DNA of 64,000 bases, from positions 496,001-560,000 of the forward strand of contig RSEE01000018.1 of NCBI GenBank assembly GCA_003971905.1, written 5' to 3'. Below, in pieces: positions 15,188-64,000 of this stretch. The notes beneath the pieces were generated by a model. It was given only the letters and a program-made list of their open reading frames with translations, did not search any database and had not been told where the DNA came from. Source of the DNA: Moniliella sp. 'wahieum'. Taxonomy: Eukaryota > Basidiomycota > Moniliellomycetes > Moniliellales > Moniliellaceae. The translations under genes were made by a program, and so were the position numbers. Position 1 is the stretch's first letter, and each line of letters opens with the position of its first letter.

Positions 15188-15259
15188 GGGCGGATAGCTC
15201 AGGGGTAGAGCGCTTGCTTAGCATGCATGAGGTCCGGGGTTCAATTCCCTGTTCGTCCA
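15188..15259 (+). tRNA. tRNA-Ala (anticodon AGC)
   Basis: A 72-base cloverleaf can be drawn by eye. The acceptor GGGCGGA pairs with TTCGTCC, followed by discriminator A; the D arm is GCTC/GAGC; the anticodon loop is TTAGCAT with AGC; the T arm is CGGGG-TTCAATT-CCCTG. No intron and no encoded CCA. The anticodon stem CTTGC/GCATG has one T-T mismatch at its second pair. A T-run follows about 11 bases downstream, as expected for an RNA polymerase III terminator. Confidence 0.93.
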
Positions 15260-58959: not shown

Positions 58960-61900
58960 ATGGTCGCCGTCCGCGTCGACGCCCTGCCCGTGCAGCCCCA
59001 GCAACCCGACCTCAACGACCCCCTTGTCGCCCCCCCGCGGGGCGACCACCCCGAGGTGACCACCTCGGCCAACCTGGATGCCAATGGCTTCCACCATGTC
59101 GTCCGCTCGCAAGCTTCCTACGGTGGCGATGCGCTCCCTGCCGCCCAAGGCCTTTACGACCCTGAGAACGAAAAGGACAGCTGCGGGGTGGGCTTTATCT
59201 GCCACATCAAGGGCAAGCCCAGCCACAAGATTGTGTCCGACGCCAAGTTTGTCCTGTGCAACATGACCCACCGCGGCGCCACTGGTGCCGACGCGCGCGA
59301 TGGTGACGGCGCTGGGTGCATGACTGGTATCCCCGACTCGTTTTTCCGCCGCGAGCTCGAGATGGACTTTGGCATCACCCTTCCCGCCGAAGGCCAATAC
59401 GCGGTGGGCAACGTCTTTTTCACCCCCAAGGATGACCGCTGCGTGCGGACCACCAAAAGATCTTTGAGTCGGTCGCTGACTCGGTAGGGCTGCGTGTCCT
59501 GTGCTGGCGGAACGTCAGTGTCGACAACTCCATCCTTGGTCCCGCCGCGCTCAGCAAGGAGCCCAAGATCCTCCAGCCCTTTGTTGTGGCCAAGGAGCAC
59601 TATGGCGCCGGATCGGCGCCTGCGCAGACAGAGGCTCCGTTTGACGAGAAGAACTTTAATCGCCAATTGTACGTGCTGCGCAAGTCGGCCACTCACAAGA
59701 TTGGTTTGGCCAACTGGTTCTACATCTGCTCTCTCTCCCCGAGCAACATTGTCTATAAGGGTCAGCTTGCACCCCGGCAGGTGTACGACTACTATTATGA
59801 TCTGCTCAACGCCCGTTACGAGTCGCACTTTGCCTTGGTCCATTCCCGTTTCTCTACCAACACTTTCCCTTCTTGGGACCGTGCCCAGCCGATGCGGTGG
59901 GCAGCCCACAATGGTACGCATGCCTCCCCTCTTCGCCTTGGTCTACTTCCTTGTTACTGACTCCCTGATGCATAGGCGAAATCAACACGATCCGCGGTAA
60001 CAAAAACTGGATGCGTGCCCGCGAGGGCATGTTGCGTTCGGAAGTGTTTGGCAACGACCTTGACCGCCTCTACCCGATTATCGAACCTGGTGGATCCGAC
60101 TCGGCTGGGTTTGACAATGTACTGGAGCTTCTGGTCGTCAATGGTGTCTTGACGCTGCCCCAAGCGATCATGCTTCTTATTCCTGAGGCTTGGCAAGGCA
60201 AACAAGACCATATGGAGCCCGAAAAGGTTGCCTTTTACCGCTGGGCGGCTTGCATGACGGAGCCTTGGGACGGGCCCGCCCTGTTTGCCTTCTCGGATGG
60301 TCGCTTCTGTGGTGCCAACTTGGACCGCAATGGCTTGCGGCCGTGCCGGTATGTCATCACTGACGACGACATTATGATTTGTGCGTCGGAGGTGGGCACC
60401 ATCCACATTGATCCGGCGACGGTGTTGGCCAAAGGCCGGCTGCAACCCGGGCGTATGCTCTTGGTGGATACCAAGGAGGGCCGCCTGGTCGACGACAAGG
60501 AGCTCAAGATGACTACTGCCCAGTCGGCCGACTTTGCTGCCTGGCTCGAAGCGCAGCTACTGCATCTCCCTGACATTTGTCGCCGCACCCGGGCCAACGC
60601 GCCGATCACGGCCGAGCTCGACAGCACCACCCTTAGTACCGATCCGCGGATGAAGGCGTTTGGGTACACCAACGAGCAGATTAATCTGTTAATGCTCCCC
60701 TGGGCACGTCTGGTAAAGAGGCGCTGGCTCGATGGGTAACGATGCGCCCCTGGCGTGCATTGCCGATGCGCCTCGGCAGGTCTACGAGTACTTCCGCCAG
60801 CTGTTTGCTCAGGTTACCAACCCGCCCATTGACCCATCGCGAAGCGGTCGTCATGTCGCTGGAAACGTATGTCGGTCCCGAGGGCAATCTGCTGGAGATG
60901 AACCCCAAGCAGGCTCACCGCCTCTTGCTCCCATCGCCCATGCTAAAGATTGAGCAGATGAATGCCATCAAGCGCATCCACGAGGCTCGACGACTGGAAG
61001 ACAAAGGTAATTGACATTACATTCCCCAAGGCGATGGCATTGCGGGCTACGAACGCACGATCGACCGCATTTGCGCAGAGGCTAGCGCGGCGATTTCGGA
61101 AGGCTACACCATTGTCGTTTGTCTGACCGTGCGGTGAGCGAGGACCGCGTCGCCTTGAGCTCACTGGTTGCCGTCGGTGGTGTGCATCATCACCTGATCC
61201 GCAACAAGGCTCGTACCAAGGTGGCTTTGATGATTGAGACGGCCGAGGCTCGGGAGGTGCATCACTTCTGTGCCTTGACGGGCTATGGTGCCGACGCCAT
61301 TTGCCCCTGGCTGGCGATTGAAGTGATGGCCAAGGTGCACCGCGAGGGCTTGATCAAAGAGGACATTACGCTCGAGACGGCTGTCGAGAACTGGCTGCAC
61401 GGCGTGGATGGCGGGATTCTCAAAGTGATGTCCAAGATGGGCATTTCGACGCTTGCATCCTACAAGGGTGCCCAAATCTTTGAGGCACTGGGCGTGGACA
61501 ACTCGGTGATCGATCGCTGCTTTGCCGGTACGGCCAGCCGCATCAAGGGTGTCACGTTTGAGCTGTTGGCCATGGATGCATTTGAATTCCACAACCGCGG
61601 TTGGCCTTCTCAGGAAACGGTCCTGCCCCCCGTTTTGGCCGAGAGTGGCGAGTACCACTGGCGAGATGGTGGTGAGGCTCACGTCAACGATCCCGTGTCG
61701 ATTGCCAATCTGCAGGATGCGGCGCGGGAAAAGAATCAGTTTGCCTGGGACCAGTACAGCAAGCAGGCCACCCAGTCCGTCAAGGCCACCGCCTGCGTGG
61801 CTTGCTCGACTTTGACTTTACCAAGGCGCGCCCCATCCCCGTGGACCAGGTCGAGCCGTGGACGAGATTGTGCAGCGATTCTGCACTGGCGCCATGTCGT

Positions 61901-64000
61901 ACGGTTCCATCTCGATGGAGCCCACTCGGCTTTGGCGATTGCCATGAACCGCTGGGTGGCAAGTCCAACACGGGTGAAGGCGGCGAAGACGCCGAGCGTT
62001 CCATTCCACTTCCCAATGGGGACTCGCTCCGTTCGAAGATCAAGCAGGTTGCTTCGGCCGGTTTGGTGTCACGTCCAACTACCTTGCCGACAGCGACGAG
62101 CTGCAGATCAAGATGGCGCAGGGGGCCAAGCCTGGTGAGGGCGGTGAGTTGCCAGGCCACAAGGTGTCGCCATCGATTGCGCGTACGCGTCACTCGACCG
62201 CGGGTGTCGGTCTCATTTCCCCCCCTCCTCATCATGACATTTACTCGATTGAGGACTTGAAGCAGCTGATCTACGACCTCAAGTGCGCCAACCCTCGCGC
62301 GCGTGAGCGTCAAGCTTGTGTCCGAAGTGGGTGTTGGCATTGTGGCGGCGGGTGTGGCCAAGGCCAAGGCGGACCATGTGCTGGTCTCGGGTCACGACGG
62401 TGGTACGGGTGCGTCGCGCTGGACTGGCATCAAGTACGCCGGACTTCCCTGGGAGTTGGGTCTGGCCGAGACGCACCAGACATTGGTGCTCAACGACCTG
62501 CGTGGCCGCGTGACGGTGCAGACTGACGGTCAACTTCGCACTGGTCGCGACTTGGCCATCGCTACGCTCCTAGGTGCCGAAGAGTATGGCTTTGCCACCA
62601 CGCCCCTCATTGTGATGGGCTGCATCATGATGCGCAAGTGCTTGGGTGTGGACACGCTGGTGCGCACGCTGGGCGGTGCGCGACGAAACGCATTGGCGAT
62701 ATTGCCCTTGGCGACACGCTGTTGGACGACAGCAACAACCCTGTGCTTGTCATGTCGGTGGGCGATGTGGAAACGGGGGAGATGTACCAGGTTGCATACA
62801 CTCTTGATGGCGAGGAAAGCGCTTTGAGTGCACGCCGGACCACATTCTTTCTTTGGCAGCCGTGGGCGTGGAGCCCACGATGGAGAACAAGACGGTCGAG
62901 TTTTACAAGCGCTGCGTGTCGGGCAAAAAGCTGGACCAGGCGGCCGAGCACGCGCCTCGTGTATGATGCACGACCTTGTAACTCTGGCGATGTCCAAGAC
63001 TTGGACCGCGAAGATGAGGTGGACGAGGAGATTGGGTATGTTATTTGGATCTTGTCCCGTGCAGCGAAGGCGTACTGACTCGCATATACCTTTAGCTCTG
63101 AGATGTTACCAAGGAGTTGCTCAGCGGGCACCGTCACCGTGCCCACGCGACGGGCGCATCGCCATTCGACCCTCGCAGTTGCGTCCATGGCAAGGAAACC
63201 GTCCACGTTTCCTTTGACCTTGGCGTCGCCATGCCCGAGCTCGAGAGCGACCACGGTCGGACGCTTCGTCGACGGCCCCTGGCACCCCAGCCATCGAGCC
63301 TGCCGCCGACACGGTGGCCCTTGGCCCGGTGGATGAACTGGTGTTGAGTGAAACTGCCAAGGCACCTGCGCCCGTTCGTGCCACCGAGGAGCCCTTCCTC
63401 CGTGTTGGGGCTCAACTGCAAGGCCGCCTTGCCCTTCTCAAGGAGAAGATCCAGGAGGCAAGTGAGTGCTCCTGCGGTGGCCTGCACAAGGTCTCGCTTG
63501 AGCTGGCGTCCGAAGAGCAGGCACAACTGGTTAACAGCCTCCTCTTCTCTGAGCACCACCACCTTGTTGAGCCCAGCCTCGTTTTGGATGGCGACCGGTT
63601 CGAGGCGACAGCTGAGGACCTTCTCAACCACTCCCACCCTAAGCTCCGTCTTTTCCGCCCTGCCAACCAGGCCGAGTTGGGGCTGGCGCAGGACGATGCG
63701 TACTTTGTTGGTGCCTGGTTGGGCGATGGAGATGCCCACCGGGCCACGCTGGCCGCTTCGGATGCGGAAATGCTGGTGTGGTTGCACAAGTATGTGGAAC
63801 AGCTGAACGCGACGCGTCCCCAGGGCGCGACCGAGCTCAAGGTAGTCAGCCGGAAGGTGACTGCGGTTGGGGACCTGGTCGGATCCAATGCGTTTGCTCG
63901 GGCCGACATGTTTAAGCACACGGTTCTTGCCCAAGACTGGAACCCGCTGGAGGCGAAGCTTACCGACCTAGGCCTTCTCGGCACCAAGGAGCGCCGCATC
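58960..64000 (+). CDS. GLT1: glutamate synthase (NADH), N-terminal part, interrupted by an intein
   Basis: Makes two glutamates from glutamine and 2-oxoglutarate. Seen: a 74-residue leader; the catalytic N-terminal Cys of the class II amidotransferase domain ([10 protein letters not shown], Cys codon 59182-59184); [65 protein letters not shown]; the central domain ([34 protein letters not shown]); and the FMN domain ([60 protein letters not shown]), down to VMGCIMMRK at 62638. There the next residues should be CHLNTCPVG, but an intein starts instead. One intron, 59914-59975. Many frame changes (near 59460, 60705, 60735, 60835, 61000, 61125, 61795, 61855, 61930, 62055 and 62300) are most simply assembly indels. 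The gene runs off the window. Confidence 0.95.
62639..64000 (+). other. GLT1 intein with LAGLIDADG homing endonuclease (3' end outside window)
   Basis: Protein-splicing element in frame with GLT1. Block A starts at Cys codon 62639-62641: [13 protein letters not shown], then [16 protein letters not shown] and [19 protein letters not shown]. Block B is [14 protein letters not shown], with the TxxH signature (His codon 62841-62843). A linker region follows; [15 protein letters not shown] and [20 protein letters not shown] resemble the DNA-recognition/insert parts of fungal VMA/GLT1-type inteins. From about 63281 to the window end one frame is open. It holds the endonuclease dodecapeptide [11 protein letters not shown] (63701-63733) with its catalytic Asp, and later [20 protein letters not shown], matching the block D/E region of the yeast VMA1 intein. 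Blocks F and G and the C-terminal Asn are beyond the window. Frame changes lie near 62672, 62820 and between 62960 and 63280. A possible 60-base intron lies at 63036-63095. Confidence 0.9.

Follow-up and report, generated by a model that had tools for sequence, protein, structure and literature searches.

The window analyzed here is a 64,000-nucleotide stretch of the Moniliella sp. 'wahieum' genome assembly (69.5 Mb in 223 contigs), corresponding to C18:496001-560000, and its end falls within a gene for NADH glutamate synthase (GLT) that is interrupted by an intein; coordinates given below without a contig name are window positions, with this gene and its intein on the plus strand. The N-extein occupies 58960..62638, likely from the ATG to Lys-1, as judged from a tblastn search with a Tilletia GLT protein, a PF01645 match, and the sequence, and it holds one intron together with frame changes in the assembly. 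Its last segment, CIMMRK (62621..62638), begins with the first Cys of a C-x5-C-x4-C motif and leads up to the splice junction, as seen in the sequence and in alignment with glutamate synthase (GltS) chains from the PDB. The initial annotation placed an intein directly after the host sequence VMGCIMMRK and predicted an HN/CHLNTCPVG junction downstream of the window (slashes within sequences mark splice junctions), and both proposals were borne out. The last base of the host segment is at 62638, intein residue 1 is a Cys (TGC) starting at 62639, with the same arrangement in all four copies of the gene, and extension along the contig reveals the sequence ...VAHN/CHLNTCPVG, with the insert, which the window end interrupts, extending a further 405 bases to C18:560405. 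Alignment with allelic inteins places the first intein exon at 62639..63035, from block A to the EEIGG phase 2 boundary, and the second exon occupies 63096..64000 and runs past the window end. With the exons joined, the intein has ∼571 residues; the reading from C5 has 572, two of them X. Elsewhere in the window, a tRNA gene at 15188-15259 is the sole Rfam match over the gathering score.

A genome search gave strong matches to the Glu_synthase family on contigs C18, C9, C5, and C27, and further weak matches on C6, C37, C36, and C11. For each strong GLT locus we fetched ∼9.9 kb of surrounding sequence, and in all four the insert is at the identical bond, preceded by GCIMMRK and ending VAHN/CHLNTCPVG, with the last intein codon of the C27 copy disturbed by a frame change. 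GLT intein sequence is confined to these four loci (18 matches in the genome search). A protein fragment from a relative, P0001, has an identical C-terminal junction, the N side being absent from the fragment. Because the same bond is occupied in four of four GLT loci and in 23 other proteins (see below), and the C-terminal junction recurs in P0001, the insert is not a product of chance. The four loci fall into two pairs, with near identity inside each pair (98-99% in coding DNA) and a difference of ∼11% in the extein between pairs, and PRP8 PROCN is found on three contigs; these observations suggest a phased hybrid or a duplicated genome.

Intein structure and insertion site

The GLT insert has the features of a class 1 intein, with Cys1, a block B T-x-x-H, a terminal HN, and Cys+1. 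Blocks A, B, and F/G and both LAGLIDADG Asp residues are present in the GLT intein copies, and every position checked is kept in all four, with the exception of the Asn572 codon of C27, which is unreadable from a frame change. Block B (CTPDH, 62829..62843, including T65 and H68) is found in all four copies and in 23/23 allelic inteins. There are two LAGLIDADG-type motifs, the first of which (63704..63736) includes the catalytic-type Asp345; this residue and D458 are acidic in all four copies, as are their counterparts in 18 and 23, respectively, of the 23 allelic inteins. A profile built on this intein together with two allelic inteins gives a match to PI-SceI, the yeast VMA1 intein, from the first motif to the intein end, spanning the endonuclease and the C-terminal splicing part (E 1.4e-17), but there is almost no similarity over the N-terminal part (3.1 bits, not a significant match); PI-SceI also resides in another host protein, and the linker with the HxH/CxC residues described below is outside the matched part. 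Pfam LAGLIDADG_3 scores 19.6 bits in the C18 frame against a cut-off of 22.5, and 22.5 bits in the genome search, just at the cut-off and flagged as over it, on C18 only. The GLT intein was not picked up by the Pfam intein splicing domain PF14890, for which the genome search gave places on C8 and C23 only, all below the cut-off; a PF14890 match is not a requirement for class 1 membership.

A different intein is present on the minus strand at C8:815828-817038, extending from HWGMV/CVTADTEVV... to ...VSHN/CPAETPEG in a gene that we take to be RNA polymerase II subunit 2-like. A second copy of its N-terminal part is found at C23:497343-497525, also on the minus strand, with no C-terminal junction found among the frames listed. 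The C8 intein is of the kind that passages of PMC10849329 report in Salmacisia.

Between residues 133 and 134 of the GLT intein, all four copies contain 58-60 nt that look like a spliceosomal intron, and which are presumably removed from the RNA. In the window, this nested intron is 60 nt long and in phase 2 (63036..63095), and has the signals GTATGT...CTGAC...TTTAG; the alternative form is GTACGT...CTGAC...CTTAG, such that the consensus GTAYGT/CTGAC/YTTAG is kept in four of four copies around a diverged middle. It contains an in-frame TGA, and its excision restores the frame into sequence that aligns with the allelic inteins. Between C18 and C5, 34/58 aligned intron bases are alike, compared with 82% of the coding intein bases. 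A second gap in GLT, of ∼56-59 nt, is in the extein, level with residue 312 of the Tilletia protein; read by eye, this extein intron has a GTACG or GTGCG start, CTGAC, and an AG end, like the nested intron, with no match given by an automatic pattern. P0001, available as protein only, has MLPLAFFY ahead of the part that aligns with exon 2, which is what a frame opening within the same nested intron would give. We note that narrow phrase searches found no on-point report of introns inside inteins, which does not imply that they are unreported.

At the insertion site, the junction Cys+1 aligns with Cys1108 of Azospirillum brasilense GltS (1EA0, numbering by table ranges), and the C-x5-C-x4-C spacing is present both here and in the PDB GltS chains. 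We take Cys1102, Cys1108, and Cys1113 of the A. brasilense enzyme to be the ligands of its 3Fe-4S cluster, with Cys1108 as the second ligand; the literature searched gave no residue numbers for the ligands. The alignment agrees with the initial annotation, which had put the insertion at the second Cys of the motif and had this same residue acting as the +1 nucleophile. We can reasonably infer that unspliced GLT is unable to build the cluster, an argument that applies to every intein at this site, and not just to that of Moniliella.

Across the stretch that links block B to the endonuclease, mean identity to the 23 allelic inteins is 0.16, and the residues kept within this linker are H145, H147, and H164 (22/23) and C259 and C261 (23/23); C64 and C92, ahead of the linker, are present in 23/23. 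In the allelic intein alignment, H145-x-H147 (63129..63137) and C259-x-C261 (63467..63475) belong to this conserved HxH/CxC set, the former as candidate metal ligands, and P0001 has all five positions of the set that its fragment covers. Cys or His accounts for five of the six linker positions common to at least 21 of the 23 allelic inteins (P 3.5e-6), although this test was picked after seeing the pattern, and aligners favor Cys and His. The conservation makes the HxH/CxC set a candidate metal site common to the GLT-a inteins.

Frame changes, selection, and age

No GLT copy reads as a single uninterrupted frame in the assembly. Summed over the four copies, there are 13 frame changes in the N-extein (377 codons; 4 × 1.13 kb), 20 in the intein (4 × 1.71 kb), and four in the C-extein (466 codons), mostly at differing places among the copies. 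Two positions are shared, one at intein residue 105 (window about 62950) in C18, C9, and C27, and the other at about residue 464, beyond the window, in C5 and C27. We tentatively read the frame changes as errors of the assembly, given that they strike the N-extein as densely as the intein and that selection is strong (see below). The shared frame changes are not explained by simple random sequencing error, and there may be true decay of some GLT copies.

Synonymous and nonsynonymous changes were compared by the NG86 method, with C5 and C18 as the main pair. For the N-extein, intein, and C-extein, dS is 0.54, 0.73, and 0.61, and dN/dS is 0.03, 0.13, and 0.02, respectively. Within the intein, dN/dS is 0.09 for the N-terminal splicing part, 0.16 for the linker, 0.11 for the endonuclease, and 0.23 for the C-terminal splicing part (52 codons). 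The endonuclease values for C5/C9 (0.12) and C27/C18 (0.11) are in agreement with this pair, and the close pairs, with few changes, give 0.09 (C18/C9) and 0.34 (C5/C27, from very few changes). As dS in the intein is not lower than in the extein, the intein is older than the divergence between the GLT types, and the splicing and endonuclease domains have both been constrained since that divergence. These comparisons gave no sign of recent homing between the two types.

Host lineage and distribution of GLT inteins

The nearest named exteins, among the best 120 of 7,928 matches, are from Ustilaginomycotina (Violaceomyces, 81%; Tilletia indica, 82%; Ceraceosorus, 80%), and two rows labeled as fern probably reflect contamination. 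The extein tree places both this genome and P0001 inside Ustilaginomycotina, adjoining Sympodiomycopsis and Jaminaea (SH-aLRT 93). An intein at exactly the Moniliella bond was found in 23 of the best 120 of 187 proteins with an E value of 1e-30 or better, the length filter having favored long proteins. These 23 agree with the statement in the initial annotation that GLT1 inteins are known from other fungi, and they rule out a novel insertion site. Six of them have organism names, all ascomycetes, and include Scheffersomyces xylosifermentans, Elaphomyces granulatus, Diaporthe citri, and Fusarium lateritium; the extein tree puts the remaining 17 alongside these six, in a clade of 24 rows that also holds Brettanomyces (SH-aLRT 95). 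The comparison with known insertion sites that the initial annotation had proposed shows that inteins of other fungi already use exactly this site, and it is evidently the site named GLTi-a in PMC5784728, which is placed there on structure 1EA0 with the residue number given in a figure alone. The table in that source lists five GLT inteins, from Pezizomycotina and Saccharomycotina only, and the Moniliella lineage is absent from it. GLT1 inteins of Debaryomyces hansenii, Pichia/Candida guilliermondii, Podospora anserina, and Phaeosphaeria nodorum are named in passages of PMC1635734, but the sameness of the site rests on the 23 proteins rather than on these four species.

Inserts of at least 60 residues are present within the compared region in 32 of 239 GLT proteins (P0001 was left out, its N side being absent): 23 at this bond, two in Glomeromycota at another site, and seven in Plasmodium that are of another kind. 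None of these 32 is among the 118 GLT proteins that the best 120 of 7,928 matches added to the comparison, some of which are fragments. The two Glomeromycota inteins, in the GLT proteins of Acaulospora morrowiae (P0024) and Diversispora epigaea (P0026), precede TRKTVPGVG (+1 Thr) and are 435 and 439 residues long; that of P0024 matches PF05203 (E 1e-22), and this second site is not among the GLT hosts in the table of PMC5784728. Two proteins, P0018 and P0020, have HN/CHCTYYFY... or HN/CHCAYYFY... after the intein and before NTCPVG, and these extra residues are probably an unspliced intron directly downstream of the intein site. No relative was found in cellular prokaryotes, and in viral contigs three loci are similar over residues 1-72 only. 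Chitin synthase (CHS) inteins are given as the nearest relatives of GLT inteins in PMC5784728; they differ in host gene, and the kinship is as described in that publication.

The Moniliella intein and the ascomycete GLT-a inteins share the peptide bond (in 23 proteins), the block order, a LAGLIDADG endonuclease, and the HxH/CxC set, and they are of like length (∼571 residues, and 515-669 residues in the ascomycetes). They differ in that the Moniliella host is a basidiomycete, its intein has a nested intron (the ascomycete copies were compared as proteins), and it keeps the penultimate His that 14 of the 23 allelic inteins are without. Identity of the Moniliella intein to the allelic inteins is 29-33% over 463-558 residues in all 23 comparisons, whereas six pairs of ascomycete inteins have 41-49% among themselves. 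In the intein tree, a long branch separates the Moniliella intein, together with P0001, from the 23, the rooting being by choice. The ratio of intein to extein distance is 5.1 (4.6-6.5), compared with 3.5 (2.6-5.0) between Saccharomycotina and Pezizomycotina, with overlapping ranges. On the long branch and the distance ratio, we reject a recent acquisition from any of the 23 ascomycete-type inteins sampled; the element may have come through old vertical descent with many losses, or may have been transferred from an unsampled lineage.

We found no basidiomycete GLT intein in the literature searched (subscription papers and supplements were outside its scope). Passages of PMC10849329 describe, for the smut Salmacisia, inteins in PRP8 and RPB2, and the word 'glutamate' is absent from its text. 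Relative to this literature, a GLT-a intein in Basidiomycota, in a host that groups with Ustilaginomycotina, looks new, as do the nested intron and the dN/dS of ∼0.1 in the splicing and endonuclease domains.

A probable homing intein and its alternatives

We conclude with high confidence that the insert is a GLT-a intein of class 1, full-length and equipped with a LAGLIDADG homing endonuclease, whose nested intron would be removed from the RNA, whose protein would splice, and whose endonuclease would home. In this scheme, the pre-mRNA would first shed the 58-60 nt intron lying within the intein sequence, and in the precursor protein Cys1 would attack the carbonyl of Lys-1. Cys+1, which is the cluster motif's second Cys, would then receive the thioester, and Asn572 would cyclize with His571, joining Lys to Cys and restoring the motif, such that the 3Fe-4S cluster could form. 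The endonuclease would copy the intein into empty GLT alleles, with the codons of the cluster cysteines providing a target that the host presumably cannot easily alter.

The same intein could instead be retained as a post-translational switch, with redox-, iron-, or zinc-responsive splicing gating nitrogen assimilation, and with the thiols of Cys-6, Cys1, Cys+1, and Cys+6 and the HxH/CxC set proposed as sensors. The identity of the +1 Cys with a Cys of the cluster motif is consistent with such a role, as are the near-invariant C64, C92, C259, C261, H145, H147, and H164 and the long-term purifying selection on the intein. However, homing alone accounts for both the choice of site and the constraint on the endonuclease, the inteins occur patchily (an insert of at least 60 residues is absent from the 118 GLT proteins added from the best 120 of 7,928, some of them fragments), and the loss of the penultimate His in 14 of the 23 allelic inteins is unlike a finely kept switch; we consider a switch, suggested in its redox- or iron-sensitive form by the initial annotation, to be improbable and unsupported. 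The SufB intein of Mycobacterium tuberculosis, which we take to have been discussed as a stress sensor, also has an iron-sulfur context, but its host protein is unrelated and is concerned with cluster assembly rather than being a cluster-binding enzyme, the likeness being by context alone. Both PMC5784728 and PMC8861304 mention it in reference passages. The idea that a GLT1 intein tunes nitrogen metabolism post-translationally is already present in passages of PMC5056185, without the Fe-S argument. An elaboration with a two-tier gate, in which the nested RNA intron and then a metal- or redox-sensing intein control whether GLT becomes an Fe-S enzyme, also seems to us a poor prospect.

The frame changes in every GLT copy of the assembly, two positions of which are common to several copies, could point to a degenerating or dead intein, with real frame changes, some GLT pseudogenes, and one working copy. 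However, the N-extein is hit at an equal density, most of the positions differ between near-identical copies, and dN/dS is ∼0.1 between the two GLT types, and we accordingly give little credence to this explanation. As for the whole insert being a spliceosomal intron and not an intein, its presence in a eukaryotic gene is in keeping with this and nothing further is; it ends TGC...AAC rather than GT...AG, and has intein blocks at both ends as well as coding constraint. We reject this alternative on the basis of those ends and the purifying selection on the protein, and its probability is vanishingly small. Excision as a spliceosomal intron, which the initial annotation had named as a refutation, is thereby rejected for the insert as a whole, although the 60 nt inside it do resemble such an intron.

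With the homing intein as the favored interpretation, GLT-a inteins are extended to Basidiomycota, at a site that is itself already known. The retention of this intein in four gene copies with a constrained endonuclease allows the persistence of some inteins to be studied in a natural setting, and whether GLT inteins bind metal can be approached concretely through the conserved HxH/CxC residues. As a consequence of the nested intron, the element would work only in hosts able to splice that RNA, which is a possible limit on its horizontal spread.
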